From a virus: a DNA stretch of 64,000 nt. Under the pieces are notes generated by a model. That model saw only the letters and a list, made by a program, of their open reading frames with translations. It made no database searches and was not told the DNA's origin. Positions 24,130 to 49,500 of the stretch are shown here, piece after piece (within the stretch, counting starts at the first letter, position 1; every line of letters starts with the position of its first letter). The stretch covers positions 1 through 64,000 of IMG/VR virus record IMGVR_UViG_3300025112_000005. The stretch is one strand, 5' to 3'. Position numbers and translations under genes: made by a program.

Positions 24130-27100
24130 ATGTTGACGATGGCGAGCGTGGCGCGGTTGGCGAAGGCGAAGGGCAAGGACTACCGCGAGCGCGAAGCGGC
24201 GGGCCAAACGACCCTCTTCGGCGGCGGCGCCAGTGACGCGGACAGCGGTCACAGGCCCCGACGGCGTCGTCCCCGGGGGCCGGGCGCTGAGGCGGAACGC
24301 AATCACGCACTTCGCTCGCAGCATCACCGGAAGAGGGCGGAGGATCACCAGCATCGACGCACGCCGGGGGCGCCGGGGGCGCAGGAGCACGCACAGGCGA
24401 TCATGGCGCACAACAACGCGGCGGACGCACACAACGCGGCGCGGACGGCGCACGCGGAGGGCCGACCCGGGGCAGAAGCAGCCGCGGAGCGAGCGAACGA
24501 CCGGACACGAGACGCGGAAGCCGCATCTATCAGGGCGAGGAGCAAGGAAACCCCTCGCCACACGGGGCGCCACGGTGAGGAGGGGGGCCGAGGTAGTGGC
24601 CGGATCCGCGACGCGCTGGACCCCGGCGGGCGAGCGCCTGCCCCGCGTGATCCGGTGTCTGACCACCAGATCGGACGCAGGGCCGCGCACCACGCAGACG
24701 CAGCAGCCGCACACCGCGCCGTGGCAGCAGGACGCCCGTCCGACGCGAAGCAACACCGCGCCGCGGCAGACGCGCACGAGAACGCGTCTGTGCTACATGC
24801 GGCAGGGCACGCCGACGCAGGCCGGGCGAGCGTTGAAGCGCTGGCGGCCAGCGATGCCGTTGCGGGTGGACGCGGTGCCACGAGCAGCGGCGATGATGCC
24901 CGGGACCGGCGCGAGGGGGAGGCCCGCGGGCGCGTCGCCCAGGCGAAGGCGAAGCTGGACGCGGCGAAGAAGAAGGCCGGCGACAAGCCCCCGAGCGGCT
25001 ACTACCCCGCGAAGCGCTCCAAGAAGGGCGGCTTTACGGACGGCAAGGGCAACTACTGGTACCCCGGCAAGGGCGCGAAGCCCGCGGGGGCTCACGACGG
25101 CGAGCACGGCAAGGACGCGGCGCTGGCGCACCACGACGAGCGCCGGGCGCACCACGACGAGATGGCGCTGGAGCACAAGAAGGCGGCGGCTGATCCCTAC
25201 CGGACGATGGAGAGCCGGGGGAAGCACGCGGACGCAGAGCGCAAGCACCACCACGCAGCGGTACACCACGGCGCGGCGCACGCAGACATCCGCGCGGGGC
25301 GCGTGGAGCCGAGCGACCCCAAGAGACACGACACCCTGGCGGGGACCACATCCGAGTGGGCCGACGACCACGACCGGGCGCAGTGGAACGACGAAGATGC
25401 GCACCACCACGACGAAGCGGCGCGGCACCGGGCGAAGGCGGCCGAGCTGGGCGGCCACGGGCCGGAGACCCGGGCGCATCTGAACGCGGCGGACGCGCAC
25501 GAAGAGGCGCACCGGCACGGGCGGGGCAGCATCGACACCCGAGCCCGCGACGTGTTCAGCGAGCGGGCCAACAAGGCGGGGGAGAAGGCCACGGCCGCGA
25601 GCAAGGCGGCGCGCAAGAAGGCCACGAGCAAGCCCCATACGCGTCACTCGTTCAATGAGGCGTTGAAGGGGCGAGACCGCAAGGGGCGCGCGGAGCTGTG
25701 GCACGAAGTGCTGGAGGGCGCGGGACTGACGGGGAGCGACCAGCCCAACTGGAACAGCCTCGGCAGCATCGAGACGCTACGTGCGACCCTCGCCCGGCGC
25801 GAGGGCTGGGAGGAGGGCCGCAAGAAGATGGCGGCGCTGGACGCGGAGCTGAAGAAGCGCGGGATGTTGCCCCTCACCGACGACGAGATGATGGACCGCG
25901 AAGCAGCGCGCATGGACGCGGAGGGCGTGCCCCACCCGCGTGACGCCCTGGACGCGCACACGGCGTACAAGAAGACCAAGGGTGCACTGGGTACGGATCT
26001 GGTCGAGTACCTGGAGATGAACGCATACAAGGTGCCCCCCGGGGCGCACGACCTGACGTCGTTGACGGACAAGGAACTGCGCAAGCTCAAGGGGCAGGTG
26101 TGGAACGCGCTGAACGCCCCTGGACACGGCCATGCGTCGGTTCGCACACGGCGGCAGGCGCGGAAGGCGGCGAGCGCCCTGAGCGCGGAGGCGGATCGGC
26201 GTCTCAACGAGGGACACAAGGACAAGGCGGATCGGCGCAAGACCGGCGGCTTCGGCTCCCAGGCCGAGGTAGACGCGGCGTTTGAGGGCGGCGACCCGAT
26301 GGGGCTGGACCCCAACGCGGCGGCCAGTGCGTCCATGAAGCAGAAGCCCGGCGCGGTGAAGCAGGCTGCGGCGGCGAGCGTCAGCGCGCGGACGGAGAAG
26401 GACACGCCGAAGCCGGGGAGCCACGCTGCATTGGTCGCGGCGGGGAAGGCGGCTCTGGAGCGTGCGGACCACCCGCAACACAAGGTGCCGAAGGCCCTGC
26501 TGAACCGGGGCGGGCGCCTGGGACGTGAGCGGGGCATCAAGGAGGCGGCGGAGAGCTGGTACAAGCACCCGGGCCACAGCGGGATGCCGGCGCGGCACGA
26601 GGTGATCAAGCAGGTGCAGAAGGACCGGCAGCGGTGGCACGAGGACGGCGGTGGCAAGGGGTCGAGTAAGGTCGCGGACTTGGCGCCGAGCTACCTGCAC
26701 GAGTACGCGAAGCACGCGGCGTCTCAGTACGGGGACACGCCGCAGGCGGCCCCCGACCCCCAGGAACACGGGCTGTCGGGTGGGGAGGCGGCGGATCTGG
26801 TCAGCCGCTTCACGAAGCTCATGGGCACGCCCGAGGAGCCCACGAGCTGGTCCGGCGACCACGGAGGTGCGCAGATGCCCGCTGAGCACGGGCACGGCGA
26901 GGACTTCCACAGGCGGCTGATGACCGAGGCGCGCACAAACGCGGCGTCGTCCCGTTCGGGTATCCACAACAGCGCCCACCTGCACCGCATCGTCCAGCAG
27001 GCGGACCAGCACGTGGCCGACTTCGCGGAGAGCAAGAGCAGTCACCGTAGCGGCGGTGCTGTGGCGACGTACCACCCCGACGAAGAGCAGCACTGGGGCA

Positions 27101-27225
27101 CGGCGATGGCTGCGCTCCAGAACGCGCACGGCGATACGCACCGCTTCGAGGCGAAGCGCCGCAAGACGGACAACCAGATGGTGATTCGGGCTCACCGGAA
27201 GTCGGGGAAGAGCCCAAAAGCGTAG
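24130..27225 (+). CDS. Giant His/Ala-rich polyvalent-type protein, 1031 aa
   Basis: Starts with MLTMASVARLAKAKGKDYRE, followed by a clamp-motif-like AGQTTLFGG (Q26-F30). A long histidine/alanine-rich helical region runs to about residue 490, with many DAHNAA-like heptads, probably coiled. It holds a tag GYYPAKRSKKGGFTDGKGNY then WYPG at about 288-312; the same tag opens the giant proteins at 38.2 and 46.6 kb. The second half is helical and charged with no recognised enzyme. It sits just before the lysis-like and terminase genes. Interpreted as an injected internal protein of the polyvalent class; that is inference. Confidence 0.6.
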   Translation: MLTMASVARLAKAKGKDYREREAAGQTTLFGGGASDADSGHRPRRRRPRGPGAEAERNHALRSQHHRKRAEDHQHRRTPGAPGAQEHAQAIMAHNNAADAHNAARTAHAEGRPGAEAAAERANDRTRDAEAASIRARSKETPRHTGRHGEEGGRGSGRIRDALDPGGRAPAPRDPVSDHQIGRRAAHHADAAAAHRAVAAGRPSDAKQHRAAADAHENASVLHAAGHADAGRASVEALAASDAVAGGRGATSSGDDARDRREGEARGRVAQAKAKLDAAKKKAGDKPPSGYYPAKRSKKGGFTDGKGNYWYPGKGAKPAGAHDGEHGKDAALAHHDERRAHHDEMALEHKKAAADPYRTMESRGKHADAERKHHHAAVHHGAAHADIRAGRVEPSDPKRHDTLAGTTSEWADDHDRAQWNDEDAHHHDEAARHRAKAAELGGHGPETRAHLNAADAHEEAHRHGRGSIDTRARDVFSERANKAGEKATAASKAARKKATSKPHTRHSFNEALKGRDRKGRAELWHEVLEGAGLTGSDQPNWNSLGSIETLRATLARREGWEEGRKKMAALDAELKKRGMLPLTDDEMMDREAARMDAEGVPHPRDALDAHTAYKKTKGALGTDLVEYLEMNAYKVPPGAHDLTSLTDKELRKLKGQVWNALNAPGHGHASVRTRRQARKAASALSAEADRRLNEGHKDKADRRKTGGFGSQAEVDAAFEGGDPMGLDPNAAASASMKQKPGAVKQAAAASVSARTEKDTPKPGSHAALVAAGKAALERADHPQHKVPKALLNRGGRLGRERGIKEAAESWYKHPGHSGMPARHEVIKQVQKDRQRWHEDGGGKGSSKVADLAPSYLHEYAKHAASQYGDTPQAAPDPQEHGLSGGEAADLVSRFTKLMGTPEEPTSWSGDHGGAQMPAEHGHGEDFHRRLMTEARTNAASSRSGIHNSAHLHRIVQQADQHVADFAESKSSHRSGGAVATYHPDEEQHWGTAMAALQNAHGDTHRFEAKRRKTDNQMVIRAHRKSGKSPKA

Positions 27226-30836: not shown

Positions 30837-33800
30837 ATGGGCGGCGGAATGCTGACCTATGCCGAGCTGATCAAGGCGCACGCGGCGACCTACCATGGCA
30901 AGGGGCGCCGTACGGGTGTGCCGGGGCACTACAGCTACGACTACGACGAGCCCGCGCGGCGGGGCAGTGGGCGCGGCCAGCGCAAGCGGGAGGCGCTGGA
31001 GGCGGCGGGCCAGCTCTCGTTGCTGGGTCCAATGCAGCCAAGCGCGGCGCCCCCCGCCGCCCGTGAGGAGCCGAAGCCCGAGCGCCCCCAGCTCGCGCAC
31101 GACCACCCCGCGGTGAGTGAGCCCAGCGCGCGCATCACCCGGTACGACCTGAAGCAAGCGGCTGGCGTGCGCGCCGAGCTGGCGAAGATCGCGGACGAGC
31201 TGGAGAAGCTGCCCAACGGCGCAGACTGGCGACATGGCCGAGCGCGCGAGCTGGTTCGCGAAGTGGGCCGCGCCAGCACAAACGTCTTGCGGTGGGCGAT
31301 GAAGCTGGAGCTGTGGGACAAACCCGACCACGAGGGCGGGCTGGACGCATTGATGAGCGGGCTCAACCGCAGCAGCGTGCTGGAGGGCGGCCCCCAGGCG
31401 ACCGCGCGGCGCCTTCGGCGCATTCACAGAAAGCTGGCCGCGTCGGCGAAGCGTGGGACTGAGGACGTGTCCCACGAGGAGCGGCTGGAGACGCAGCAGG
31501 TGGGCGCCGTCCAGCTACAGGTCAGCAGGCACGAGGCAACGCCGGAGATGGCCCGTTCGCTCGCTCACGATCTGCGCGAAGCGCAGGGGCGCATGAAGCG
31601 CGCGGGGTTCCACGAGGCGTACAAAGGCGGGCGGGTCACCCTCAAGAAGCACGCGCGGGAGCACGAGGCGCGATACATGCGAAACGGCCGGTCAGCGGAC
31701 ACGGTCGAGTGGAACACCAATTCGCTGGGTACGCTGGGGGAGCACGAGGAGACAGTGGCGTCCATCGTCCACGAATTCGGACACCGGCACTACTACCGCA
31801 ACCTGCCCAGCCGCGCCGTTGAAGGGTGGGACGCCGAGTCTGCGCGCATGGTCAACGTGGCGCGCGAGGACGTGGACAAGCTGGCCGACTACACGGCGCG
31901 CTTCGCCAGCGACGCGCAGCGCGACGGGGCCACTTACAGCGAGAGGCTGGGGACGGAAAGCGCGTTCTCCGAACGGGTGCGTGCCCACATCACCAATGAC
32001 CCTGACCTGGACCCGGAGACCCGCGCGCTTTACACGGCGATGGTGGGGGTCGTGGGGGAAGACCTGGAAAGCAGGCTGACGACCACCTGGGCGCACCCCG
32101 GCGACCGCCAGCACGGGCTTGACGATGTGCGGAAAGAGATGCGCGAGAAGCTGGTGGGTGCGCATGTGCCCGTTCACTGGACAACGCAGTACGGGAGCAC
32201 CAAGCCAGAGGAGGCATACGCGGAGGCGTTCAAGCTCTACGTGATGCGAGGCCCCCGAGCCCTGGGTGAGCGCACCCGAAAGTTCTTCGAGCACATTAGC
32301 AGCCTGCGCAAGGCGCAAGGCGCGTTCTCAGCACCGCTGGACACCGTGATGGAGCACCGGAAACAGCTCCGCGCGGGGCGGTTGGTAGACGCGATGGATA
32401 AGGCGCTGGGGGTTTTCCGATGCAGGCGTGGCACGCCGAGGGGCTGGCGCTGCTTTGCGGATCTGGTGAAGGCATACACTGCGTATCGCGGGAAGGGCAC
32501 GCGCCACGGCTCCCCGGGGAGCTACACCTACACCTACGACGATGAGCCCAAGGCGAAGGCGAAGAAGAAGGGGCGCCACACGGTGCTCCCCACGTGGGAC
32601 GCCCCCGAGCGCATCGACCTGACTCTGGTGGGGTGCAGCAAGTCGAAGGTGGACCACGACGACCCCGTGGCCGTGCGGGACCTGTACCGCAAAGACCTGT
32701 GGAACAAGCGGCGGGGGTTCGCGGAGGCGCGCTCGCGCCACGGCACCCCCTGGGCGGTGGTCAGCGCCGGCTTGGGCATTGTGGACCCCGACACCCAGGC
32801 GACGCGCTACGACACCCAGGTAAAGGATTTGAAGGGCGACGCGCGGAGCGAGTGGGTGCGCAACACGCGCGAGAGCCTGCGGCAGAAGCTACCCCGCGGC
32901 GGGCGCCTGGAAGTGATCGCCGGGCGTGACTACGTGGCGATGCTGCGGGAGGCGGTCGAGGGGCTGGGCATCGAGCTGGTTAACCCGCTCAAGAGCGTGG
33001 GCACAGGCGACGGGAAGCACTGGCTGGCGGCGCAGACGGATCTGCTGAACAACAAGCCCGCGCCCCGGGAGCCTGAGCAGCTGCGCCCCGCGCAGCAGCA
33101 GCTCTCCCTGTTCGGCCCCGACGACTGGCCCAAGAAGCGCGCGGCGCCCACGCTCTCCGCGTACGCCGAACTGCGCCCCCTGCGAAAGAAGCACGCGGCG
33201 GCAGAGGGTGCGTGGAAGAGGGTGCTGGGGGCAGCGGAGCGGCTGCTGGTGGCGACGGACTACGCGGAGCCCCACACGGTCGAGACGACCCGAGGGACCT
33301 ACAAGTACAAGGGGGGCACCCATCGACCCCCCCAGGCGAGCGGGGGGCGGCTGGCGCCCGAGGTGACCCACCAGTTTGCAGGCGTGCTCCCGCAGGGGCG
33401 GCTTACGCCGGAGAAGCTACATGCGGGGAGGCTGGCGGCGGCGGAGACGATGGCGCGGACGATGAGCCTGGACGAGACCCCCGCGGGTGTTCCGCGCTGG
33501 TGGAAGGCCGAGCGGAAGAGGTTCGTGGACGCTGTGGCGGAGCTGCGCGGTGCGCGTGACACGTACACGTCGATCACGCGACTGTTCCCGGGGAAGCGCT
33601 TCGAGACCCCGAAGGTAGGCCGCGCCCTGGAGAAGATGGCCCTGGAACGCCGAGGGCTGGAGCGCGAGGCGGACGAACTAGACATCCCCCTGCGGCGGTA
33701 CTTCGCCAGCGGGTCCAACAACGCGGGGGAGATTCGCGGGTTTGCTGCGCTGGGCATGAACGTGGGCGTGGCGGTGGACCAGATCAACAGCGCGTCCCTG

Positions 33801-34799
33801 GAAGCGATCCGAGAGCTGCGTGGCAACGGAACCCAGGTGTTCGTGGACTCCGGCGCGTTCGGAGAGGTCAAGTTCAACGTGCCGAACAAGAAAGGCAAGC
33901 TGCCAAAGCCGGACCTGCCCATCGGCCCGTACACGGTGCGCCCCATCACACACGAGGACTGGACCACCCGACTGGCGCTCTACGACCGCATCGTGGACGC
34001 GGCGGGTGCCCAGGCGCACGTCGTCGCGCCGGACAAGATCGCCGACCAAGCGACGACGCTGGAGCGAATGCGGAAGTACGCGCCGGAGATGCAGGCGCTC
34101 CGCGAGAAGGGCGCCAACGTGCTCGCCCCGTTGCAGGGCGGCGGCGCTCTGACGCTGGCGCAGTTTGAGGACAAGGTGACCGAGGCGCTAGGCTTTGACG
34201 ACTACGTGCGGGCGATCCCGATGAAATCGAACGCCACGAGCCCCGAGGTCTTGGAGGCGTTTCTGGAGGAGCGACGCCCGAAGCGCATCCACCTGCTGGG
34301 CCTGGGGCCGAGCAGCGACGCGTTCCCCGCGATCAGGGAGATGATCCAGCGGGTCAGCCCCCATACGTCCGTTACGCTGGACAGCGTGGCAATCACGGCG
34401 GCCGTGGGTCGCCCCAAATCAAAGAAGACTGGGGAGCTGCTGGAGCCGCGCAAGCTGTCCCGGGCGACCGATTGGGTGAGACGAGAGATGAGCCCGCAAT
34501 ACGACAGAGACGCCGATTACACGGACCTGATTGGCGCCCCGAGCGAGTGGATGCCGCTGGCCCAACAGCAGCGCGTTGCGCGCGACCTGGATGCGATGGG
34601 GCACGACGGGGCTGCGTTCTTGCGCGACCCTGACGGGTGGCTCCAAGAGGACGAGGGGGACGGTGCCCCGCCGAACTACGAGCTGCCGGAGGTGGCGCAC
34701 CTAATGGATCAGGTGTGGGGCAACTGGTGGGAGGACCGGGACGAGCACACGGCGGCCGTCAAGCGCGCGGCCGTGATGGAAGCGTGGGCGGCATCGTGA
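30837..34799 (+). CDS. Polyvalent protein: zincin, DUF6884-like and TGT/DpdA-like domains
   Basis: 1320 aa (an ATG four codons in is also possible). Tag YHGKGRRTGVPGHYSYDYD near residue 20, then QLSLL (59-63). Zincin motif HEFGH at 312-316. A second tag YRGKGTRHGSPGSYTYTYD lies near 560. A DUF6884-like domain follows (LVGCSKSKVDHDDPVAVRDL, about 595-740), then a clamp-type QLSLF at 755-759. From about 954 comes a TIM-barrel-like region with DSGAF (1004-1008), APDK, LAPLQGG and HLLGLGP, resembling TGT/DpdA enzymes that exchange guanine for a 7-deazaguanine. It may modify DNA, or attack host components after entry. Domain calls are by motif. Confidence 0.65.
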   Translation: MGGGMLTYAELIKAHAATYHGKGRRTGVPGHYSYDYDEPARRGSGRGQRKREALEAAGQLSLLGPMQPSAAPPAAREEPKPERPQLAHDHPAVSEPSARITRYDLKQAAGVRAELAKIADELEKLPNGADWRHGRARELVREVGRASTNVLRWAMKLELWDKPDHEGGLDALMSGLNRSSVLEGGPQATARRLRRIHRKLAASAKRGTEDVSHEERLETQQVGAVQLQVSRHEATPEMARSLAHDLREAQGRMKRAGFHEAYKGGRVTLKKHAREHEARYMRNGRSADTVEWNTNSLGTLGEHEETVASIVHEFGHRHYYRNLPSRAVEGWDAESARMVNVAREDVDKLADYTARFASDAQRDGATYSERLGTESAFSERVRAHITNDPDLDPETRALYTAMVGVVGEDLESRLTTTWAHPGDRQHGLDDVRKEMREKLVGAHVPVHWTTQYGSTKPEEAYAEAFKLYVMRGPRALGERTRKFFEHISSLRKAQGAFSAPLDTVMEHRKQLRAGRLVDAMDKALGVFRCRRGTPRGWRCFADLVKAYTAYRGKGTRHGSPGSYTYTYDDEPKAKAKKKGRHTVLPTWDAPERIDLTLVGCSKSKVDHDDPVAVRDLYRKDLWNKRRGFAEARSRHGTPWAVVSAGLGIVDPDTQATRYDTQVKDLKGDARSEWVRNTRESLRQKLPRGGRLEVIAGRDYVAMLREAVEGLGIELVNPLKSVGTGDGKHWLAAQTDLLNNKPAPREPEQLRPAQQQLSLFGPDDWPKKRAAPTLSAYAELRPLRKKHAAAEGAWKRVLGAAERLLVATDYAEPHTVETTRGTYKYKGGTHRPPQASGGRLAPEVTHQFAGVLPQGRLTPEKLHAGRLAAAETMARTMSLDETPAGVPRWWKAERKRFVDAVAELRGARDTYTSITRLFPGKRFETPKVGRALEKMALERRGLEREADELDIPLRRYFASGSNNAGEIRGFAALGMNVGVAVDQINSASLEAIRELRGNGTQVFVDSGAFGEVKFNVPNKKGKLPKPDLPIGPYTVRPITHEDWTTRLALYDRIVDAAGAQAHVVAPDKIADQATTLERMRKYAPEMQALREKGANVLAPLQGGGALTLAQFEDKVTEALGFDDYVRAIPMKSNATSPEVLEAFLEERRPKRIHLLGLGPSSDAFPAIREMIQRVSPHTSVTLDSVAITAAVGRPKSKKTGELLEPRKLSRATDWVRREMSPQYDRDADYTDLIGAPSEWMPLAQQQRVARDLDAMGHDGAAFLRDPDGWLQEDEGDGAPPNYELPEVAHLMDQVWGNWWEDRDEHTAAVKRAAVMEAWAAS

Positions 34800-35314
34800 A
34801 CGCCCTGGTGCCCCCGCAGGCGTGGCACGCCGAGGGGCTGGCGCTGCACGAGCGCATGAAGCTGATGCGCTATGAGCTGGCGCAGTGTGGCTGGCGCATC
34901 TGGAAGCGCCCGAAGTGGAGCACGCACGCGTTCAAGGGCACGTCTATGACGTTCCACCCGCTGCGGCTGATGGTGACCCGTGTGGGGGTCGACCTGGAAG
35001 ACGACGCCACCCCGCTCTCCGAGGCAACGCTGTTCGCGCACGAGATGGCGCACGTGCTCCAGGGCGCGGGCTCGCGCGTGCTCTGGACGCTTCGCTACCT
35101 GCTGTTCCCCGGCTTCCGGCGCGCGGTCGAAGAGGAGGCGTTCGCGCACGGGATGGCGCTCGCGCTTGCTGCGGGGCACACGGGCTGGCACTACAAGGAT
35201 CCGGCTGTGTTGCGGCCCCTGTACCTGTTGAAGCGTGACGAAAGCACCGCGGAGCGTGTACACCGTCGGGCGAGGGATCTGGTAGCATCCGGCGCAGGAG
35301 GTAGCACCCCATGA
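34796..35314 (+). CDS. Small zincin-type metallopeptidase
   Basis: 172 aa, GTG in a GTGA overlap. The HExxH motif LFAHEMAHVLQGAG (H82-E-M-A-H86) is followed by a helix and EEEAFAHGMALA about 35 residues later, which could supply the third ligand. A minimal zinc protease, the second of four HExxH proteins in this block. It may cleave host or virion proteins. Substrate unknown. Confidence 0.65.
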   Translation: MNALVPPQAWHAEGLALHERMKLMRYELAQCGWRIWKRPKWSTHAFKGTSMTFHPLRLMVTRVGVDLEDDATPLSEATLFAHEMAHVLQGAGSRVLWTLRYLLFPGFRRAVEEEAFAHGMALALAAGHTGWHYKDPAVLRPLYLLKRDESTAERVHRRARDLVASGAGGSTP

Positions 35315-35649: not shown

Positions 35650-36051
35650 GTGGCCACCCTACGCGGCGAAGTAACCGGATCCGCGAACGCCAACAACGCG
35701 GCGCGGCTGGCCACGATCTGGGGGGACGGGGTTCTTGTCTACGACACGGACGATGACCGGCTCTACGTCGGCGACGGGGAGACCGCAGGCGGTAATCCGC
35801 TCGCTGAGGGCGGGACTACGCCCATCCCCGGGCACCCGCATTTGTTTCAAGGAGATGGGGCCACGACCGTTTTCACGCTACCGTGGACCCCGTTGACGGC
35901 TTCGGCCCGTGTGTGCCGAAACGGCTTGCAGATCGAGCGAAGCCCGACGCCTGGGGATAAGGACGAATTCCTGATCGCCGGTAACAAAATCACTTTCGGG
36001 GCTCCCCCCGGTACGCTGGACCGTCTTTCGGTCTCGGCGTGGACCCGCTAG
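35650..36051 (+). CDS. Tail-fibre/tropism-determinant-like small protein
   Basis: 133 aa, GTG start. VYDTDDDRLYVGDGETAGGN in the first third is the usual short N-terminal module of phage tail fibres and Mtd-like tropism proteins. The C-terminal part (GDGATTVFTLPWTPLTASAR, then CRNGLQIE) is a fibre repeat that recurs in the next protein (RNGLRGEQ). Probably an adaptor or short fibre. Confidence 0.6.
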   Translation: MATLRGEVTGSANANNAARLATIWGDGVLVYDTDDDRLYVGDGETAGGNPLAEGGTTPIPGHPHLFQGDGATTVFTLPWTPLTASARVCRNGLQIERSPTPGDKDEFLIAGNKITFGAPPGTLDRLSVSAWTR

Positions 36052-36071
36052 AGCGAGAGGGAAAGCAGCAC

Positions 36072-38147
36072 ATGGCCATCAAGATCGCCAGCGACCAGAT
36101 TCAGGACAACGCCGTCCTGACTGCCGCGATCACCGACACCGCGGTCACCGCGGCGAAGCTCGCCAGCGGCGCCGCCGTCGCCAACGTCGGCACGGGCGGC
36201 ATCAGCTCCACGGAGCTGGGGTCCGACTCCGTGACGCAGGCCAAGATGGCCGACGACTCAGTGGGCACCGCGGAGATGATCGACGCCAACGTGACCGCCG
36301 CCAAGCTGGCGTCGGGCGCTGCCGTGTCCAACATCGGCGCGGGTGGCATCACCAGCAACGAGATGGGCTCCACGGCCAAGAACAGCGCGCTCGCGTCGAA
36401 GGCGTGGATGGAGGAGGTGGTCAGCGCCGACGAGTCGAACCCGTCCGCGTCGTCCGTCGACATCAAAACTTCGCTGAGCTTCGGCACCACCACGGGAGTG
36501 GGCGGCGCCACCATCGGCGCCACCGCGGGCATCCCGGTGCTGATCGAAGAGACGGGTGGCGCCGACTCCGGCGACTGGAACAACACGGACTCCCGCCCCG
36601 CTGCCATCGGCGGCGACGCGAAGCTCTACCGCTGCGAAGTCTTCAGCACCGCGGGTGAGGAGATCGTGGACGCGAACGAAAAGCGCGTCTGGGCGGTGAT
36701 CACGTGTGACGGCACCCGCCTGACCACCGACGCCTACACCCTGCGCTTCATGTCCGGCGAGTACGGATCCGGCAACGAGGGGGCGTACACGATGGCACAA
36801 GCGTTCTTCATCGTGTACCCCCAGGTGACCGACCTGTCGAACATGACCCTGGGCTCCAACCGCCTGGGCATCGTCTCGATCAGCAAGGAAGCCGCGGGCA
36901 TCGCCACCGGCCAGATCGGGACGGGGGAGCTGGCCCTCGACGCCGTGACCCAGGCGAAGATGGCCGACGACTCAGTGGGCACCGCGGAGATCCTGAACGC
37001 GAACGTGACCGCCGCCAAGCTGGCGTCGGGCGCGGCCGTCTCCAACATCGGCGCGGGTGGCATCACCAGCAACGAGCTGGGCACGGGCTCAGTGATCGCG
37101 GGCAAGATCGCGACGGGCGGCGTTTCGGCGGCGGCTCAGCTCGCCGCAAACGTGGTCGAGACCGCGAAGATCCTCGACGCCAACGTCACGGCGGCGAAGC
37201 TCGCCAGCGGCGCGGCCGTCTCCAACGTCGGCGCGGGCGGCATCACTAGCAACGAGCTGGCCACGGGTTCGGTGATCGCGGGCAAGATCGCGACGGGTGG
37301 CGTTTCGGCCGCGGCTCAGCTCGCCGCAAACGTGGTCGAGACCGCGAAGATCCTCGACGCCAACGTCACGGCGGCGAAGCTCGCCAGCGGCGCGGCCGTC
37401 TCCAACGTCGGCGCGGGCGGCATCACCAGCAACGAGCTGGCCGCGGGTTCGGTGACCGAGGCGAAGATGGGCAGCTTGCTGCTGTCCCAGATCCGCAACA
37501 CCGAGTCGGTTGGCCCGCTGGAGACCAAGCTCGGTGGCATTCTAGGCAGCGGCGCGGCGTCCCTCGCCGCGGAGACTGCGCTGGCCGTCTCCGAGAAGGC
37601 CGCGCCGGACATGAGCGTGGACGTGGCCGCGGGCACGTCGTTCAACGAGAACGGCGACCGCTTCGTGCTGACCACCCTCCAGAACGTCTCGGTGAGCGCG
37701 GCGCCCACGGCCGGCAACAGCCGGTACGACGTGGTGGTCATGTACGGTGACGAGCTGGTTACGATCCGTGCGGGCACCCCCGCCGCCACGGGCTCGCACA
37801 CCGAGCCGACCCTGACCACGGGCGACGTGAAGCTGGCCGTGGTCGACGTGGAGAACGGCGACACGACGATCGTGGATGCCAACATCTACGACCACCGTCG
37901 TCGTGCCAACTGCACCCGCGTGGCGGAGAAGTTCGCCCCGTCGGGCTCGGACGTGACACTGGCTTTCCGCACCCGCCGCGGCGACCCCCAGGTCTTCCGC
38001 AACGGTCTGCGCGGTGAGCAGGTCGCGGCGGCTGCGACCGATGCTGACCAGTACACCGTCGACCAGCTCCCCGAGCAGGACGCGACCATGATCACGTTCG
38101 GCGCGTCGGTCAGCGGGGACACCATCCTCGTGGACTACGAGGGCTGA
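36072..38147 (+). CDS. Repetitive tail fibre protein, 691 aa
   Basis: The protein starts MAIKIASDQIQDNAVLTAAI. Repeats of the type VTAAKLASGAAVSNIGAGGI, SNELG and AGKIATGG run through the first 480 residues, like other thread-like fibres. A globular insert (about 110-290) and a C-terminal domain (FNENGDRFVLTTLQNVSVSA ... IYDHRRRANC ... VFRNGLRG) follow. It should bind the host surface. Two neighbouring DNA units of about 180 bp (37081-37260, 37261-37440) are nearly identical. Its position between terminase and portal is unusual for a fibre. Confidence 0.75.
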   Translation: MAIKIASDQIQDNAVLTAAITDTAVTAAKLASGAAVANVGTGGISSTELGSDSVTQAKMADDSVGTAEMIDANVTAAKLASGAAVSNIGAGGITSNEMGSTAKNSALASKAWMEEVVSADESNPSASSVDIKTSLSFGTTTGVGGATIGATAGIPVLIEETGGADSGDWNNTDSRPAAIGGDAKLYRCEVFSTAGEEIVDANEKRVWAVITCDGTRLTTDAYTLRFMSGEYGSGNEGAYTMAQAFFIVYPQVTDLSNMTLGSNRLGIVSISKEAAGIATGQIGTGELALDAVTQAKMADDSVGTAEILNANVTAAKLASGAAVSNIGAGGITSNELGTGSVIAGKIATGGVSAAAQLAANVVETAKILDANVTAAKLASGAAVSNVGAGGITSNELATGSVIAGKIATGGVSAAAQLAANVVETAKILDANVTAAKLASGAAVSNVGAGGITSNELAAGSVTEAKMGSLLLSQIRNTESVGPLETKLGGILGSGAASLAAETALAVSEKAAPDMSVDVAAGTSFNENGDRFVLTTLQNVSVSAAPTAGNSRYDVVVMYGDELVTIRAGTPAATGSHTEPTLTTGDVKLAVVDVENGDTTIVDANIYDHRRRANCTRVAEKFAPSGSDVTLAFRTRRGDPQVFRNGLRGEQVAAAATDADQYTVDQLPEQDATMITFGASVSGDTILVDYEG
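37081..37440. repeat. Tandem repeat of about 180 bp in the fibre gene
   Basis: 37081-37260 and 37261-37440 align with only scattered differences and keep frame, adding 60 residues each. Such units allow fibre-length variation by recombination. Confidence 0.75.
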
Positions 38148-38207: not shown

Positions 38208-41200
38208 ATGAGTGGTGGCCGTGTCTATCGCGAGCGGGAGGCGGAGGGGCAGCTCGGCTTGTTTGGCCAGATGGTCCAGCAGGCGAAGCAGAAGAAGCCC
38301 CCCGCGCCCCGACCCCCCTCCCCCAAGCCGTCGGCCCCCCGCCCCCCTGCGGGCTACCACCCTGCGCCCCGGAGCCGTAAGAGCGGCTGGACGGACGGGC
38401 ACGGGCACTACTGGTACGCGACCGGGCAGCACAACCACGCGAGCGGCGGCGAGGAGCACCCCGAAGCCGAGGAGATGGAGAACGACCGGGCGATCGACCT
38501 GCACGACGACCAGATCCACGAGGAGCTGAACAACGGGCGTAGCTCGCAGCTCCGGCGCCGGAAGCTGAACCGGGAGAAGCGCCTACGCGCGAGCGCCGAG
38601 GAGCGCAGGCAGGCGGCGGAGAAGCCGAAGATCGGGCGCGTCGAGCACCCGAAGCCCGAGGAGCCCAAGCGCGGACGCGACGAGCTGGTGGAGGATGTGG
38701 ACGTTCAGTCCTACCCACACAAGCGCGGAGCAAAGCACTATGTGCGCGGAGCGTCGCGAGATGCGGTGCTGGTGAGGCTCCGCGAGATGGGGGCTTCGGA
38801 GGGTCAAATCGAGTGGGGGCGGGAGGGCACACGGGAAGGGGCGTACCTGGGGCGGTACGTAGGAGAGTGGAACGAGCTGACGCCGAAGCCCGAGGAGCCC
38901 AAGCGCGGACGCGACGAGCTGGTGGAGACGGCCGAGGAGCCCCAGCCCGAGCCCCCCGAGGCGCCCGGTGAGCCCCCGCCCCAGGTAGAGCCGCCCGAGC
39001 CCGAGAAGGAGGGCGAGAGCGGGTGGGAGGAGTGGCGAAAGAAGCACCCGGAGCACACCGACGCGGAGCGGTTCCACCGAGCTGAAGCACAGCGCACCGG
39101 CAGCGCCACGCACGAACAGGCGGCGCACGCTCACCAGACGGCCCGCCGAATCGGGGGCTACCACAAGGCCCGCGCGTGGGACATGTCCCGGCTGGCGTTC
39201 GACGAGAAGCCGAAGCCGCTGGTGGAGGAGCCGCCCGAGCCGGAGGCGCCCAAGGCCGAAGACGCGGACCTGACGCACGCAAAGCAGCTCATGCGAGACC
39301 ACATGACGCGTGCCGAGGAGTACCGGAAGCACGACGGCGCCGAGGAGGTTGTGCGCGCGCACAGCGCGGCGGCTGTGCTCTGGTCGCGCGTCGCCATCGG
39401 GGATGCCGACCGCGGCGATGCCATCGACGCGACCGCGGCGGCAGGCAAGGCGGAGCTGGCGTACACGGCTACCCCCCCCGCGGGGCCGGTGGAACCCCCT
39501 CGCGAGGAACCACCGGCCCCGCTCCCCCCGCCCAAAGGTATGCCCTTGCCTGATCCCTATCGTATCCGCACGGCGGGGGAGTATGCCCGGCTCCCTGTTG
39601 GGAGTGTGGTGGAGAAGAAGGGGGGCGGCGTGTATGTGAAGACGCCCCAGGGGGGATGGGTGCATCAGCACCCAGACACCGGCCTGCACGACAGCGGCGG
39701 CGGTCCGGGGGGTGAAACGAAGGTGCTCGACGAAAAAGAGGGGTTGCTCTCGCTCGTATCTCACGCCCAGGTGTTGCCCGATGTGGTTCATATCCCGGTG
39801 CCGGGGAAGACGTCTGAAGACGCCCACCGGGTGGGCGCGTTCCTGTTGAGCGAGGAGGGTCGCGAGGCGCTGGCCTCTCGCGGCGTTCGTGCCTCTGGCA
39901 TGTCGCTTGGTCCCGGCAATTCAATGATCTTCGTACACCGGACCCACGAAAAGCGCCCCGCCGACCCCCCCAGCGGTGTCGACACGCACGCGGGCGCGGT
40001 CAAGGCCGCGCGCTACGCGGACGGCGCGTTGCGCATCCCGATTCCGGCGCACGAGGGGGGGGCGAAGGCGGGCGCGAAGGCGCTGGGGATGTGGCTGATG
40101 GGGGCGGAGGGGCGCGCGGCGTTGGTGGCGCAAGCCGACCAGCTCGACGTGGTGCCCAACCTGCGCAAGATCCGCATCCAGAACGGGGAGATGGCGATCC
40201 TCGCGCGCCCGCTCACGGAGGCGGAGCTGAAGCAGCGGCGCGACGCGGCCAAGAAGCGCACACGGGGGCCGACGACGGGGGGCGGCGCGGCCCGCGGCAT
40301 CGACCGGACGCGCGAGGCGGCGCTGGCCGCCCGCGGGCAGGACGGCAAGACCGTGGCCGCCCAGGTCGAGAAGGATGAGCGTGATTGGGGCGAGAAGATC
40401 GGCGGTGCGGCAAAGGACCGCTGGGACGCCGTGCACAGCCGCAACCTGGGCGCGATGGAAGAGGAGGAGGGCGCGGAGTTCGCCCACAAGCACGTGACCA
40501 AGGCGCGCGTGCTGGGCTCCCATGACCCCGAGCACGACAAGGCGCTGGGGTCGACCCCGGGCGCGAGCCTCATCAAGCGCGAGCTGTTCAAGAAGGTGGC
40601 CCCGCGGCCCGAGAACAGCCCCGGGCACCGGAGCAACTACGTCGCCGGCTGCGATTGGCTGGCGAAGATGATGGACGTGCTGCACCACGAGGACGATGTG
40701 GCGTCGTTCTTGGAGGACTGGAAGACCGTCGCGGTTGAGGGGACCGAGCGGGACGTAGACGCGAAGACGTTCGCGGATCTGCGCGAGACGCTGGGCATTG
40801 TTCTTTGGAATAGGATGCACGTCATAGACCATCACGCCGCCCCCGGTCGCTGGAGGAAGTTTAGCGCGCAGGGCCAATGGTGGGCGCTGCCTGCTACGGA
40901 GGCCCCCGGGGGCAGCTTCAAAGTGCTGCACCACGAAGGCGAATTTACGCCGCGCGAACAGGCGGAGTGGTTGGTTGCCGAGCCCAAGCGCCGGGACGAG
41001 CTGCGCGCGCTGAAGAAATCGCGCGGGTCGTGGGCGCTCCATCGTCGGACGCAGGACACGGAGCGGCTACAGCGGTACGCACGGGCGTTGGGCGGGTCGT
41101 TCAACACCCAGCTCACCAACAGCACATCGGGAAACAAGGATTCGGCGCTGTGGGTGCGGGTGAAGCAGGCACGGGCGGGTAGCACGGCTTGGGAGGATCT

Positions 41201-42383
41201 GGGCGTCGGCGTCGACAAGGAGAAGAAGAAGCGCGACAAGAAGGGCAACGCGCCCCGCAGCTCCCACAAGTGGAAGGGCAGCGTGGAGGGCGCGGAGCGC
41301 AAGGGCGGCCCGGCTGTCCCCGCAGTGATCACCGAGGAGAAGCTGGCGGCCGACTTCGGCATCAAGCGCGGCGAGTACGGGCGCAGCATCGGGAGCACGG
41401 GGGAGCTGCACCTGCGCAAGTGCTACGAGGCGTTCACGGATCTGGCGGACCTGCTGGGGCTCGACGCGCCCCAGATGGGGAACGGCGGCGAGCTGGCGAT
41501 GGCGTTCGGCGCACGCGGGCGCGGCGGAGCCCGAGCGCACTACGAGACGGTGCGGAAGGTGATCAACATCACCAAGATGGCGGCGGGGTCGTTGGCTCAC
41601 GAGTGGGGGCATTACCTGGACGACCTGATGGGGGGGGCGGGGCTGACCGAGGTGAAGGGGCGGACGCAAGCGCAGTTCGCCAGCCACGGCCCCGAGCAGT
41701 ACGCCGAGGCGCTGGACCCGAAGCTCAAAGAGGCGATGATGGCGGTGCGCGCGGCCATTTTGAGCAAGGACCCGGAGGCGTCGCGACTTCGTGACAAGGC
41801 GCTGGAAAAGGCCCGGGGGCTGCACAGAGAAGCGCGCGAAGCATTCGACCAGCTCCGTGCGCTGTCGTACGGGGAGAAGCAAGGGGAGAAGGGTAGGGCG
41901 TTAGGACTGAAGCGCGAAGAGCTTCGGGTGCAGGCGGCGGCGGCGGACAGGGTGGCGGCGCAGCTCAAGGAGAAGGCGGAGAAGCCGAGCAAGTACGCGG
42001 CGGACGCCAAGAAGCTGGGCGGCTATTGGGAGCGCCCGCACGAGATGTTCGCGCGCGCGTTCGAGTCGTTCATTGAGGATTCGCTGGTCGAGCGCGGGCG
42101 TGTGTCCGACTACCTCGTGCAAGGGACCAAGCCGCTGCGCGACCTGTGGAAGAAGACCAAGGAGAAGGAAGGCCCGTTGTGGGACCGCACCGAGGTGGAG
42201 AAGAAGCACGAGGCGCTGGAGCCGTATCCGCAAGGGGATGAGCGGACGCGGATCAACACGGCGATGCGCGAGCTGGTGGAGGCGCTGAAGGGCTCGGATC
42301 ACTTGCGCAAAGGCTTGACCAGCTACGTCTATGGAAGCATCTTCGGCCAGATGGTGGCTGACCGACTGCTGGGGGTTACGTGA
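38208..42383 (+). CDS. Polyvalent protein with LPD1-like metallopeptidase domain, 1391 aa
   Basis: N terminus: YREREAEGQLGLFGQ (clamp-type QLGLF, residues 15-19), then the tag GYHPAPRSRKSGWTDGHGHY. An acidic, proline-rich, partly repeated segment follows (RGRDELVE twice). The middle (about 550-850) is helical and unassigned. The C terminus matches LPD1 ('large polyvalent protein-associated domain 1'): AMAFGARGRGGARAHYETVR, VINITKMAAGSLAHEWGHYL. Its zinc motif is HEWGH at 1131-1135, with a helical tail near YWERPHEMFARAFE. LPD1 is established as a polyvalent-protein marker. Probably injected; its substrate is unknown. Confidence 0.7.
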   Translation: MSGGRVYREREAEGQLGLFGQMVQQAKQKKPPAPRPPSPKPSAPRPPAGYHPAPRSRKSGWTDGHGHYWYATGQHNHASGGEEHPEAEEMENDRAIDLHDDQIHEELNNGRSSQLRRRKLNREKRLRASAEERRQAAEKPKIGRVEHPKPEEPKRGRDELVEDVDVQSYPHKRGAKHYVRGASRDAVLVRLREMGASEGQIEWGREGTREGAYLGRYVGEWNELTPKPEEPKRGRDELVETAEEPQPEPPEAPGEPPPQVEPPEPEKEGESGWEEWRKKHPEHTDAERFHRAEAQRTGSATHEQAAHAHQTARRIGGYHKARAWDMSRLAFDEKPKPLVEEPPEPEAPKAEDADLTHAKQLMRDHMTRAEEYRKHDGAEEVVRAHSAAAVLWSRVAIGDADRGDAIDATAAAGKAELAYTATPPAGPVEPPREEPPAPLPPPKGMPLPDPYRIRTAGEYARLPVGSVVEKKGGGVYVKTPQGGWVHQHPDTGLHDSGGGPGGETKVLDEKEGLLSLVSHAQVLPDVVHIPVPGKTSEDAHRVGAFLLSEEGREALASRGVRASGMSLGPGNSMIFVHRTHEKRPADPPSGVDTHAGAVKAARYADGALRIPIPAHEGGAKAGAKALGMWLMGAEGRAALVAQADQLDVVPNLRKIRIQNGEMAILARPLTEAELKQRRDAAKKRTRGPTTGGGAARGIDRTREAALAARGQDGKTVAAQVEKDERDWGEKIGGAAKDRWDAVHSRNLGAMEEEEGAEFAHKHVTKARVLGSHDPEHDKALGSTPGASLIKRELFKKVAPRPENSPGHRSNYVAGCDWLAKMMDVLHHEDDVASFLEDWKTVAVEGTERDVDAKTFADLRETLGIVLWNRMHVIDHHAAPGRWRKFSAQGQWWALPATEAPGGSFKVLHHEGEFTPREQAEWLVAEPKRRDELRALKKSRGSWALHRRTQDTERLQRYARALGGSFNTQLTNSTSGNKDSALWVRVKQARAGSTAWEDLGVGVDKEKKKRDKKGNAPRSSHKWKGSVEGAERKGGPAVPAVITEEKLAADFGIKRGEYGRSIGSTGELHLRKCYEAFTDLADLLGLDAPQMGNGGELAMAFGARGRGGARAHYETVRKVINITKMAAGSLAHEWGHYLDDLMGGAGLTEVKGRTQAQFASHGPEQYAEALDPKLKEAMMAVRAAILSKDPEASRLRDKALEKARGLHREAREAFDQLRALSYGEKQGEKGRALGLKREELRVQAAAADRVAAQLKEKAEKPSKYAADAKKLGGYWERPHEMFARAFESFIEDSLVERGRVSDYLVQGTKPLRDLWKKTKEKEGPLWDRTEVEKKHEALEPYPQGDERTRINTAMRELVEALKGSDHLRKGLTSYVYGSIFGQMVADRLLGVT

Positions 42384-44119
42384 GCTGGTGGGACCGCCTA
42401 CGGGGGCGTGAGCCGGCGCCCTTGGTGGGCAGCGAGGCGTTCACGGACGCGATGGTGGCGATGGCGGTTGACGCGCTGGCAAAGGCGCAGTCGTTGGAGC
42501 CCAAGGGGAAGGCCCCCGAGCCCCAGGCGCACGATATCGACCCGTGGGACGTGTACGCCGCGGTGGGCGATGAGGGGATGCTGGGCCAGCAGCACCTTGG
42601 CACCGCGGGGCTGGACTACACCACGCTCATGTCGATGGCGCGGGTGCCCACGATCGCGGGCATCATCCAAACGCGGGTGAACCAGATCGGGGAATTCGCG
42701 TGGCCCGCGTACGAGGAGGGCTCGCTGGGCTTCCAGATGCGGCTCCGCGACCGGGAGAAGACCCCGACCAAGGCACAGCAGAAGCGCATCCACGAGCTGA
42801 CGGATTGGATGGTGAGCTGCGGCGACGAGCGTATCGGCTTCGAGCTGAACATGGAGAGTTTCCTACGGATGCTCATGCGCGACTCGCTGACCTACGATCA
42901 GGCGACGTTCGAGGTGGTGCGCACGAAGGGCAAGGACGTGGCGGGGTTCGTGCTCGTGGACGCGTCCACGGTGCGCCGTGCGATCCCGACCGAGGAGGAG
43001 CGCGACGCGGGGATCCGGCGCAAGGACGACCAGATCGCGTTTGTGCAGATCTTGGGCGACGAGGTGGTGGCCGAGTGGACGGCGCGGGACCTTGCCTTCT
43101 GCGTGCGGCGCCCGCGGTCGGCAATCGCGATCCAGGGGTACGGCTACCCCGAGCTGGAAGACCTGATCCGGGTGATCACCAGCATCCTGCACGGCGAGAC
43201 CTACAACGCGAACAACTTCACGCACGGGATGCACACGGCGGGGATTCTGGCTCTCAAGAGCAAGATGAACCCGAAGATGTTCCGAGCGTTCCGGCGCGAG
43301 TTCTATGCGCTGATGAGCGGTGCGTACAACGCCAAGAAGACGCCAATCGTACAGCTCGACCCGGACGCGAAAGAGGAGCTGCAAGCTATCAACTTGAGCC
43401 AGTCCAACCGGGATATGGAATTCAAGGAGTGGATGGCATACCTCCAGAAAGTCGCGTGCTCGATCTACCAGATCGACCCCGCCGAGCTGGGCTTCGTCCA
43501 CGGGGCGGAGAACCAGACCGGCGCGCTCTCCCAAGGCGGCCCCGAAGCGCGCATCACTGCGTCGAAAGAGAAGGGGCTGCGCCCGCTGTTGCGTGGCGCC
43601 CAGGTGTGGCTCAACCGCTGGGTCGTGTCCCAGGTAGACCCGGACTTCGAGCTGGTTTTCGTCGGGCTCGACAAGGCCCGGCAAGATGCGCAGTTCGAGG
43701 CGGACCTGAAGCGGCTCAAGGGTTTTATGACGCCCAACGAAATTCGCGCGCGCTACGACCTGAAGCCCATTCCGCCCGAAGTCGACGGCGGCGCGGCCGA
43801 CATGATTCTGGATTCGTCGTACATGAACACGGCGATGCAGCTCCGCCAGATGGCCCAGATGGACGAGGAGGGCGGCGAGGAGCCCGGGGGCGGCGGGGGC
43901 GAGGAGCAGGGCGACGAGTCACAGGGCGAGGAGCCCGGCGAAGAGACCGATGCGTCGCAGGGCTGGGACATGGACGACGACGACGTGGACCTGGACGCGC
44001 TGTTCGGTGGACCCCAAGGCGATGAGCCCGACGACGACGACGACGACGACGAGGACGAGGACGAGGACGACGACGACGACGACGAGGACAAGGTGAAGAA
44101 GGCGCTGGTGGAGGTCTAG
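42380..44119 (+). CDS. Portal protein
   Basis: 579 aa, GTG in a GTGA overlap. DYTTLMSMARVPTIAGIIQT near the N terminus, then VLVDASTVRRAIPTEEER, YGYPELEDLI and ACSIYQIDPAELGF are typical of HK97-type portal proteins, as is its position before the MuF protein. It forms the dodecameric DNA gate of the head. The last 90 residues are extremely acidic (runs of D and E up to 20 long), much like the terminase end. Acidic portal tails may contact the packaged DNA channel or the terminase. Confidence 0.85.
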   Translation: MSWWDRLRGREPAPLVGSEAFTDAMVAMAVDALAKAQSLEPKGKAPEPQAHDIDPWDVYAAVGDEGMLGQQHLGTAGLDYTTLMSMARVPTIAGIIQTRVNQIGEFAWPAYEEGSLGFQMRLRDREKTPTKAQQKRIHELTDWMVSCGDERIGFELNMESFLRMLMRDSLTYDQATFEVVRTKGKDVAGFVLVDASTVRRAIPTEEERDAGIRRKDDQIAFVQILGDEVVAEWTARDLAFCVRRPRSAIAIQGYGYPELEDLIRVITSILHGETYNANNFTHGMHTAGILALKSKMNPKMFRAFRREFYALMSGAYNAKKTPIVQLDPDAKEELQAINLSQSNRDMEFKEWMAYLQKVACSIYQIDPAELGFVHGAENQTGALSQGGPEARITASKEKGLRPLLRGAQVWLNRWVVSQVDPDFELVFVGLDKARQDAQFEADLKRLKGFMTPNEIRARYDLKPIPPEVDGGAADMILDSSYMNTAMQLRQMAQMDEEGGEEPGGGGGEEQGDESQGEEPGEETDASQGWDMDDDDVDLDALFGGPQGDEPDDDDDDDEDEDEDDDDDDEDKVKKALVEV

Positions 44120-46593: not shown

Positions 46594-49500
46594 GCCAGCT
46601 CGGACTCTTCAGCCACGTGGTCCAACAGGCGACGGCGAAGCCGAAGCCGAAGCCGAAGCCGAAGCCCGGGGGACACCACCACCCGCCCCCCGGCTACCAC
46701 CCCGCGCCCCGGAGCCGTAAGGGCGGCTGGACGGACGGCAAAAACTACTGGTACCCCGGCGATCCGCACCCGAAGCCCCGGGCGGCGGCAGCCGAGCCCG
46801 AGCCCACTCCGACACCGCACCCGGAGCCCGTGGCGCCTACGACACCCCCGGAGCAGGCCACCGTGTTCGGGGGCGAGCACAGCAGCGTCACGCAGGAGCC
46901 CGAGGAGACACCCGCGCCGACGGAGCCGACCCCCGCGGTGGTGGTTGAGCCCGCGGCCGAGCCCGAGCACGCCAAGCCTGACGAGCTGTGGGCAGACGAA
47001 GACGACGATTTTGACGACCCCGACGGCGACGGCTTCGATCTGTGGGACCTGATGGCCGAGGAGGGCGTGGCAGCGCCCGAGGAGCACGAGGCGGAGCTAC
47101 TACACCCCGACTGGTCGGCGGAGCCGAGCGAGCGCCCCCAGGGGCAGGCGGAGCTGGTGGGCGAGGAGGAGGAGCCCGCGGAGGAGCCCGCGGAGGAGCC
47201 CGCGGAGGAGCCGGGGACCGAGCAGGAGACTGAAGCCGACGACATGGCGCGTCGGATGCAGGAGCGGTTGAAGGAACGCGCGGCGCAAGAAGGCGCGGAG
47301 CGCGAAGCCCGTGTGGCGGCGGAAGAAGCGCAGCTCGCCGAAGAGCTGCGGCTGGCGTCCTTCGCGTATGGCTACGAGGTGCCCCAGCACGCGGTGCTGC
47401 CCCGGGAGCTGGACGAGAAGGCCCGTTACCGGCTGTGGGTGAAGGACGGCGACGCGTGGACGCGTGTCGATGAGCCGGAGGGGGTGTTTCGGCACAAAGG
47501 GGGGATGTTCCGAGGCGCTTGGGTGCGTCCCGTATGGGACCGGACGCTTGAGGCGTACGAAGGGCAGTCCCCCGTCTTCATGCCCAGCGACCGCGTTCCG
47601 GCGTCGGAGGCGTTGGGCGCGCTGATCAAGATCGGGGAGCACGAGGTCAGTCCCGACCGACCGCCGAATTTCCTGGGGTTGATCCCCGAGAAGCTGGTGC
47701 GTCGGCGCCTTGTCACGGTGGAAGACGAGGACGGGAAGCCCGTACGGGACGAAGATGGCCGGTTGGTCCAGAAAGAGGGCGCGCTGGCGGGCGCGGGTGC
47801 GTCCCGGCAATACCGGGATTACTACAGCGGCAACCTCGTTTGGGCGCACGACAACATCCAGTCCCAGGATTGCACGGACACGTGGCTGATCGAGTCGGGG
47901 TTCTACGACGCGGTGCAGGGTCCGGCGACGGGGACCGACCGGCATGGCGAGCCGATCAGCCTGTCCGACCAGCAGCGCGACCGGCGGCTGGCGGTGCTGC
48001 ACAGCAACGTCCAGGGCATCGACTGGCTGAAGCTGCGGGAGCAGAAGCACGTCAAGATCTGGGAGAAGACGCAGCGCGATTTGACGGCGTGGTGGACCAA
48101 CATCACCAACGAGCAGCGCGAGCACTTCTGGACGAACTACTGCCACCGGGACAAGCAGAACACGCTGGCGAAGACTGCGGATCCGCGCCATGAGCTGGCG
48201 GAGTTCGCCGTGCCGAAGGGCATGGAGAAGATGTCGGCGCTGCGGGGTCCCTACTGGCGGGAAGACGCCACGACCTGGGCAGACGCAGAGCACACGATCC
48301 CGTGGCACGACCGGGACCCCGACAACCCCAAGCACGGCAAGCCGTGGGACTTCCACGTCTACCAGAAGAAGGCGGCCAACTTCGTCGTGGACCATGCGCC
48401 GCGTTCCATCCTCGCGATGGAGATGGGGCTGGGCAAGACCCTAACCGCGCTGGGCGCGTTCCACGAGCTGAAGCAGCGCGGCGAAATCGACCAGATGATC
48501 GTAAGCGCCCCGGTGAGCGCGATGGGGAGCTGGGAAGAGCACTTCGGGGATCTGTCCGACGCGCGGGTGGGCATCGCGAACGGATCCAAGAAGCAGAAAG
48601 AGCGGGTCGTCCAGCAGTTCGAGCGCGGCGAGCTGGACGTGTTGGTGGTGACCACGGACGCAATCGCCATCGACATGAAGAAGGCGAAGGAGCTGGACGA
48701 GGTTCCCAAGGGCGCCAACAAGGTGACCCTCAAGATGAAGGGGAGCTATCGAGGCGCGACCTGGGAGACTTCGTTTCTCCACCGACGGACGGACGGGGAG
48801 GGTTTCTCGATATTCCCTGATACGCGCAAGCTGGCGGGGTGGGATGACATGCGTATAAGCCTGGGCAATCCGCTGGGCTACCAGAAGCACGCGCATGACG
48901 AGGAGCGAAGGCGACAGAGCGGCGGTAAGAGCTACAGCAATGCTATGGCGGAGGCCCGTCGCGCGATCTTAGAGGAAGCGCCCGAAGGGGCCACTATGCA
49001 GACGTACGACGGCTACCTGCGCAAGATGGCTGACGGCACGTGGGCCGCACCGCGCGAAGATCGGGGCGGGTGGAAGGCCGGGAGGCGTACGTCTGATTCG
49101 ATCTGTGGGCGGGGGGATCTGACGGTCTGCTCTGCCCGACACTTGTCCGGCGAGGTGAAGCGCATTCAGCTGGATGCGGGGGATGTCAAGCTCGCGTACG
49201 AGAATCCCGAATCCAACAAGGCGCGTCTCCAGGCGATGATGGAGGCCAAGGGGAAGCGGACGCTGCGCGTTGCCGACGAGCTGCACAAGTTCAAGAACCC
49301 CAACAGCAACCGCGCCCGTGGCTTCTTTGACGTGTTCACCGAGCCCGAGGGGCGGGTGATCGGAATGACCGGCACGCCCAAGCCCAACGGGATGCAGGAC
49401 TTTTACACCATCATGGACCACGTGGCACCCGGCAGCCTGGGCGACACCTACGCCGATTTCTCGGAGCGGTACAGCTACCGTTACCGGGCGTTCGGGGCGG

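Follow-up and report, generated by a model that had tools for sequence, protein, structure and literature searches.

A DpdC-Like Domain Joined to a Predicted DpdA-Like Barrel in a Polyvalent Phage Protein

The first 64,000 nt of the IMG/VR virus record IMGVR_UViG_3300025112_000005, referred to here as the window, contain a single open reading frame (ORF) on the plus strand (30837-34799) for a large multidomain ("polyvalent") protein of 1320 amino acids (aa). The record as a whole stems from an uncultured virus, comprises 80,205 bases, and may be incomplete. An initial annotation of the window had listed peptides that recall a DUF6884-like domain and the barrel of tRNA-guanine transglycosylases (TGT) and DpdA. 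All of these peptides are real and lie in this one ORF: LVGCSKSK at aa 597 (position 32625), YFASG at aa 955 (33699), DSGAF at aa 1004 (33846), VVAPDK at aa 1062 (34020), QGGG at aa 1100 (34134), and HLLGLG at aa 1152 (34290). In bacteria, DpdA exchanges guanine in DNA for a modified base, which DpdC then finishes. Judged from sequence and profile comparisons, the C-terminal half of the 1320 aa protein is a DpdC-like/DpdA-like fusion.

The GC content at the third codon position was between 0.84 and 0.92 across all 200-codon blocks of the ORF, and near-identical copies of the ORF region were present in contigs of three other metagenome samples. Since the third-position GC was steady, we concluded that there is no change of frame within the ORF. 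Together with the near-identical copies in other contigs, this ruled out a frame error that fuses two genes. A chance match of the motifs was ruled out by the relatives, the fold, and the profile controls.

The DUF6884 domain covers aa 596-731 (32622-33029, plus strand) and matched PF21818 with E=2.1e-23. Both family motifs are present, CxxxK as C600-K604 (CSKSK at aa 600) and SAxxG as S643-G647 (SAGLG at aa 643). According to its Pfam description, the family carries CxxxK and LSAxxG motifs and is related to YaaA, which binds DNA (PMC11701544). The DpdC protein of Dpd islands was assigned to DUF6884 by a genome-mining paper (PMC11888242), and DpdC converts dPreQ0 in DNA to dADG (PMC12839542); dADG in S. 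Montevideo needs DpdC. The initial annotation had correctly seen both domains in one chain and had overlooked that DpdC, the partner of DpdA, falls into the Pfam family DUF6884, which makes the fusion more meaningful than first supposed. All three DUF6884 domains that are fused to a barrel matched the PADLOC models for DpdC (best 1.5e-5, window 9e-4), with matches that cover only part of the models, and PDC-M57A, a further candidate family, scored higher on the DUF6884 domain (1.3e-14).

The barrel domain extends over about aa 954-1240 (33696-34556, plus strand). Relatives were gathered from viral contigs, plasmids, and bacterial genomes, and the sequences of 11 of them served as input for an AlphaFold2 model. 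The predicted fold is a triosephosphate isomerase (TIM) barrel with eight beta/alpha units and a predicted local distance difference test score (pLDDT) of 83.2, in agreement with the fold that had been expected from the motifs. A Foldseek search against the PDB retrieved a broad range of TIM barrels, and the top 20 included TGT of mouse and of Zymomonas. Against viral models, the top match, with E=5e-17, was a polyvalent phage protein (ART-PolyVal); a queuine tRNA-ribosyltransferase from a phage followed with 5e-4.

An alignment of 25 barrel sequences, with identity down to 22%, had 16 invariant columns: SG (958-959), DSGAF (1004-1008), Y1049, PD (1065-1066), Q1100, G1103, H1152, LG (1154-1155), and D1182. 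These residues cover all expected catalytic positions and the counterpart of DpdA His196, a residue noted previously (PMC6884629). DSGAF (33846-33860) holds the predicted first catalytic Asp and aligned to DSGAF of the DpdA of phage 9g. The Pro-Asp pair (34029-34034) holds the second conserved Asp and aligned to the LDxIGDP region of DpdA, and QGGG (aa 1100-1103, 34134-34145) holds the predicted base-recognition Gln as in TGT. The His of HLLG (aa 1152-1155, 34290-34301) aligned to HGFG, and thus to His196. The predicted nucleophile D1182 (34380-34382) was paired with the Asp in the DpdA motif DSSSW; its peptide TLDSVA (aa 1180, 34374) was absent from the initial list and sits at the place expected for the nucleophile Asp of TGT and DpdA. 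In the AlphaFold2 model DSGAF follows strand 3, PD strand 4, and the Gln strand 5, while HLLG is located at strand 7 and the last Asp at strand 8. The conservation of the catalytic Asp residues, D1004 and D1182, was thus borne out in the 25 relatives.

The barrel was compared by hhalign, as a profile, to an alignment of phage and bacterial DpdA and to a set of tRNA TGT. The match to DpdA had Prob 90, E=1.4e-6, and a score of 54.6; the top score against 60 column-permuted DpdA alignments was 16.5. In this alignment, DSGAF, HLLG, and D1182 were in register with DSGAF, HGFG, and the DSSSW Asp, respectively. The match of the barrel to tRNA TGT reached only Prob 6 and E=0.006, and DpdA matched TGT with Prob 88 and E=3e-6. 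These profile comparisons place the barrel in the TGT/DpdA superfamily, closer to DpdA, from which it is about as distant as DpdA is from TGT. The link to DpdA that had been proposed from the motifs was thereby supported. Relatives of the barrel also matched PHROG 887, "queuine tRNA-ribosyltransferase" (best 3e-7; another 1e-5).

Barrel homologs with 34-50% identity and the same motifs were found in a dozen distinct viral contigs. Searches of 50,697 deposited phage records retrieved no relative of the family, which is therefore liable to be missed by routine annotation. Plasmid-type barrel queries retrieved no viral relatives, and an alignment of nine barrel sequences was too divergent for pattern scans. 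Some barrels stand alone, in large phages and on plasmids, and others are fused to further domains. DUF6884 and barrel form a compact two-domain protein of 706 aa in L024 and are combined with a Mom-like domain (E=3e-7) in a protein of 1140 aa in L018/L028. The DUF6884-barrel pair is thus found, with an unchanged order of domains, in three divergent proteins, i.e., in two viral lineages besides the window, and each time DUF6884 lies inside the ORF of the barrel (3 of 21 barrel records). The tree is compatible with a single and with a repeated origin of this fusion. L019 encodes 1982 aa with InPase, PAPS-reductase-like (PAPS, 3'-phosphoadenosine 5'-phosphosulfate), barrel, and Mom-like domains (Mom-like E=2e-9). 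A bacterial contig (L031:361-4962) harbors one chain of 1534 aa with InPase, C5-cytosine methyltransferase (E=6e-57), and barrel, followed by a Mom-like protein in the next ORF. L015-L017 combine a weak minor-head-protein match with InPase and barrel. On a Nostoc plasmid (L058:6764-12945), a gene annotated as dpdA and another TGT-like gene lie between helicases in a Dpd-like island.

The N-terminal part of the protein contains a putative zincin-like metallopeptidase region (31380-32399, plus strand) with the motif HEFGH (aa 312, 31770-31784) and, within EEAYAEAF, a Glu that is a candidate for the third ligand. HEFGH, the sole identifying mark of the zincin of the initial annotation, thus lies in the same ORF, outside the segment 32608-34650 given there. 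Pfam gave no match for this region, sequence searches returned only matches to itself, and a single-sequence AlphaFold2 model (pLDDT 45) was too poor for judging the fold. The view that a base-modifying enzyme in one chain with a metallopeptidase is unusual was not upheld: zincin-like peptidases are the most frequent domain in the survey of polyvalent proteins from phages and conjugative elements by Iyer et al. (2017, PMC5512222), and a metallopeptidase is therefore an ordinary part of such a chain. Further HExxH motifs (HEMAH, HEWGH, HELTH) are present in neighboring proteins of the window (34703-35311, 38208-42383, 50664-55166), so that several possible metallopeptidases lie within one late region.

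Two copies of a linker repeat are located on the plus strand. Copy 1 (aa 15-38, HAATYHGKGRRTGVPGHYSYDYDE, 30879-30950) was read from the sequence and resembles copy 2 (aa 544-572, AYTAYRGKGTRHGSPGSYTYTYDDEP, 32466-32552); the N-terminal segment matched both copies with E=4.6e-6. Such a short basic and Tyr-rich module (for example GKGxRxGxPGxYxYxYD or HKYIRR...YRYFYD) recurs between the domains of different polyvalent proteins, with similar copies in the ORFs 24130-27225 and 44119-46593 and in L015, L018, and L019. This module may serve as a signal for processing or packaging. The linker at aa 755-759 (33099-33113, plus strand) contains the pentapeptide QLSLF, which resembles a sliding-clamp-binding motif by a short-motif match only. 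Similar pentapeptides (QLSLF, QLGLF, QTTLF, QPGLF, QLALF) are found in linkers and at chain ends of polyvalent proteins, in the window also in the ORFs 24130-27225, 38208-42383, 46590-50555, and 50664-55166, and elsewhere in L019, L031, L026, L005, and L012. We counted 14 of them compared to 0.9 expected from shuffles, for a pattern that was picked after inspection of the data. None was present in the portal, TerL, Mu-F-like, or primase proteins.

TerL and portal genes lie on either side of the gene, with LPD1, SNF2, and ddrB-ParB proteins around it, and these surroundings indicate a polyvalent-protein context. The combination of several unrelated domains per chain in a phage with terminase and portal corresponds to the definition of phage polyvalent proteins (PMC5512222). 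The window also encodes, at 36039-38147, a protein in which near-identical repeats (VTAAKLASGAAVSNIGAGGITSNEL...) occur many times; it is probably a tail fiber or a similar structural protein.

We consider it probable that the C-terminal half of the 1320 aa protein constitutes a two-enzyme cassette for DNA base modification, made up of the DpdA-like barrel and the DpdC-like domain inside a polyvalent protein, and that it shields the phage DNA from restriction. The fused partners of the barrel are mostly DNA-modifying enzymes (Mom-like, C5-cytosine methyltransferase, DpdC-like), which argues for DNA rather than tRNA as its target. By analogy with DpdA, D1182 would attack the glycosidic bond of a guanine in DNA and form a covalent Asp intermediate, and a 7-deazaguanine-type base would take the place of the guanine. 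The DUF6884 domain would then process the inserted base and, by analogy with DpdC, would turn the nitrile of preQ0 into an amide (dADG). The polyvalent protein is probably produced for the virion or packaged with it, and the cassette is possibly cut from the chain by the adjoining metallopeptidase domain. Protection of the phage DNA against restriction appears to be the likeliest purpose.

Several observations weigh against this interpretation. No database model identified the barrel directly. In sequence searches, the barrel of the window itself had no match to phrog_887, to Pfam TGT, or to a chain of the PDB, and PDB sequence searches with the single sequence or with profiles of 9 and 25 sequences gave nothing useful for the barrel. 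Since the window sequence itself reaches no DpdA model and only the profile-profile comparison does, we use the term DpdA-like and not DpdA. Among the PDB folds, sugar epimerases scored at least as well as TGT in Foldseek. DUF6884 was lacking in 18 of the 21 barrel records, so the two domains are separable, and shuffling of domains could bring unrelated enzymes together in polyvalent proteins. The idea of packaging into the virion draws on the gene context and on the weak minor-head match in one relative (E=0.0017). QueC and QueD were not found in the 80-kb record, and among the 21 barrel records QueD was present in none and QueC in one; any of these records may be incomplete, and the search did not extend to FolE or QueE.

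In known cases, modification of DNA by DpdA-type systems is encoded by separate genes, often located beside genes for preQ0 synthesis; such synthesis genes are not obligatory, and singleton phage DpdAs exist. Due to the lack of QueC and QueD, preQ0 made by the phage was set aside as donor, and the base would either be supplied by the host or not be preQ0. Phages that have DpdA and no synthesis genes likely draw on host preQ0; an example is MED16, which contains dADG in its DNA (PMC8306585). By this analogy, host preQ0 is our default guess as the simplest donor for the barrel.

It is possible, though rather doubtful, that the base inserted by the barrel is not preQ0 but another, which a PP-loop protein might for instance activate or thiolate, and that the DUF6884 domain trims this base, resulting in an undescribed hypermodification of DNA. 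A candidate pathway partner is the PAPS-reductase-like PP-loop protein encoded at 44119-46593 (plus strand; PF01507, E=1.5e-13), which is homologous to the PAPS domain that is fused to the barrel in L019 (E=2.5e-83). The near absence of QueC and QueD agrees with such a donor, as does the presence of PAPS_reduct in 11 of the 21 barrel records, a count without a baseline for such records. However, PAPS_reduct is widespread in both cells and phages, and the L018 and L024 records pair DUF6884 and barrel without it. It is conceivable, but unlikely, that the barrel defines a clade of its own among DpdA-like enzymes, carried by viruses and plasmids and at work inside DNA-modification polyproteins. 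Together with the fused DpdC-like, PAPS-like, or Mom-like domains, it would make an undescribed DNA base that is not built from phage-made preQ0, perhaps by virion-packaged enzymes that act on the genome at entry, or by enzymes held on the replication clamp by QLxLF motifs.

An action of the barrel on host tRNA or another RNA, which would reprogram translation in infection like a TGT and leave DUF6884 as a shuffled neighbor, appears improbable. The Gln at the base-recognition place is shared with TGT, while most 9g-type DpdAs have His, and two TGTs were among the top 20 PDB folds. On the other hand, the zinc motif CxCxxC...H of TGT was missing in all 25 relatives, and aa 941-1320 contain no Cys at all; CxCxxC was present in four of six TGTs. 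A canonical tRNA TGT was set aside on this basis. The much lower profile probability for TGT than for DpdA and the DNA enzymes among the fusion partners are further arguments against RNA as a substrate. Least probable is a joining by chance of independent effectors, with a barrel that possibly removes bases from host DNA or tRNA: polyvalent proteins do mix unrelated effectors (PMC5512222) and most barrel relatives lack DUF6884, but the pair keeps its order in three divergent proteins, and DNA modification is a repeated theme among the other enzymatic partners.

The predicted DpdA-like/DpdC-like cassette was also compared to known systems. Phage DpdA, as in Enterobacteria phage 9g, shares with the barrel the TIM barrel, DSGAF, H-x-x-G with His196, the nucleophile Asp, and the lack of a zinc motif. 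The barrel is related to it at the profile level only and differs by the Gln, by the invariant N-terminal SG motif, by its embedding in a polyvalent chain, and by the lack of preQ0 genes alongside (QueC and QueD were sought). With DpdC of bacterial Dpd islands, the DUF6884 domain has the Pfam family and both motifs in common, but it is a domain of a larger phage protein and not a separate gene, and the PADLOC DpdC models were matched weakly and in part. Like the polyvalent proteins surveyed (PMC5512222), the protein is a large multidomain chain near terminase and portal, with HExxH and with LPD1, ddrB-ParB, and SNF2 neighbors; the text of that survey does not mention TGT or queuosine-type enzymes. 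BREX-related capture (BRC) systems also include a TGT homolog, sometimes fused to GNAT, in a modular conflict system with proposed DNA modification (PMC12839542). In contrast to the phage protein with its DpdC-like domain, BRC is a host defense without DpdC. The open papers searched contained nothing on DUF6884 joined to TGT, nor on TGT in polyvalent proteins.

At this locus, DpdA-like and DpdC-like enzymes are united in one chain. Which enzymes make dADG in the DNA of phages has been described as unsettled (PMC8306585, PMC6884629). The fusion suggests a phage DpdC, and the 706 aa protein of L024 is a clean two-domain protein for testing this. Mom-like, C5-methyltransferase, and PAPS-like domains are recurrent fusion partners of the barrel, which suggests modular polyproteins by which phages stack modifications of their DNA. 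A DNA-modifying activity would also be added to the list of weapons of polyvalent proteins, and the combination of DpdA-like and DpdC-like domains could help the virus to hide its DNA from the host.

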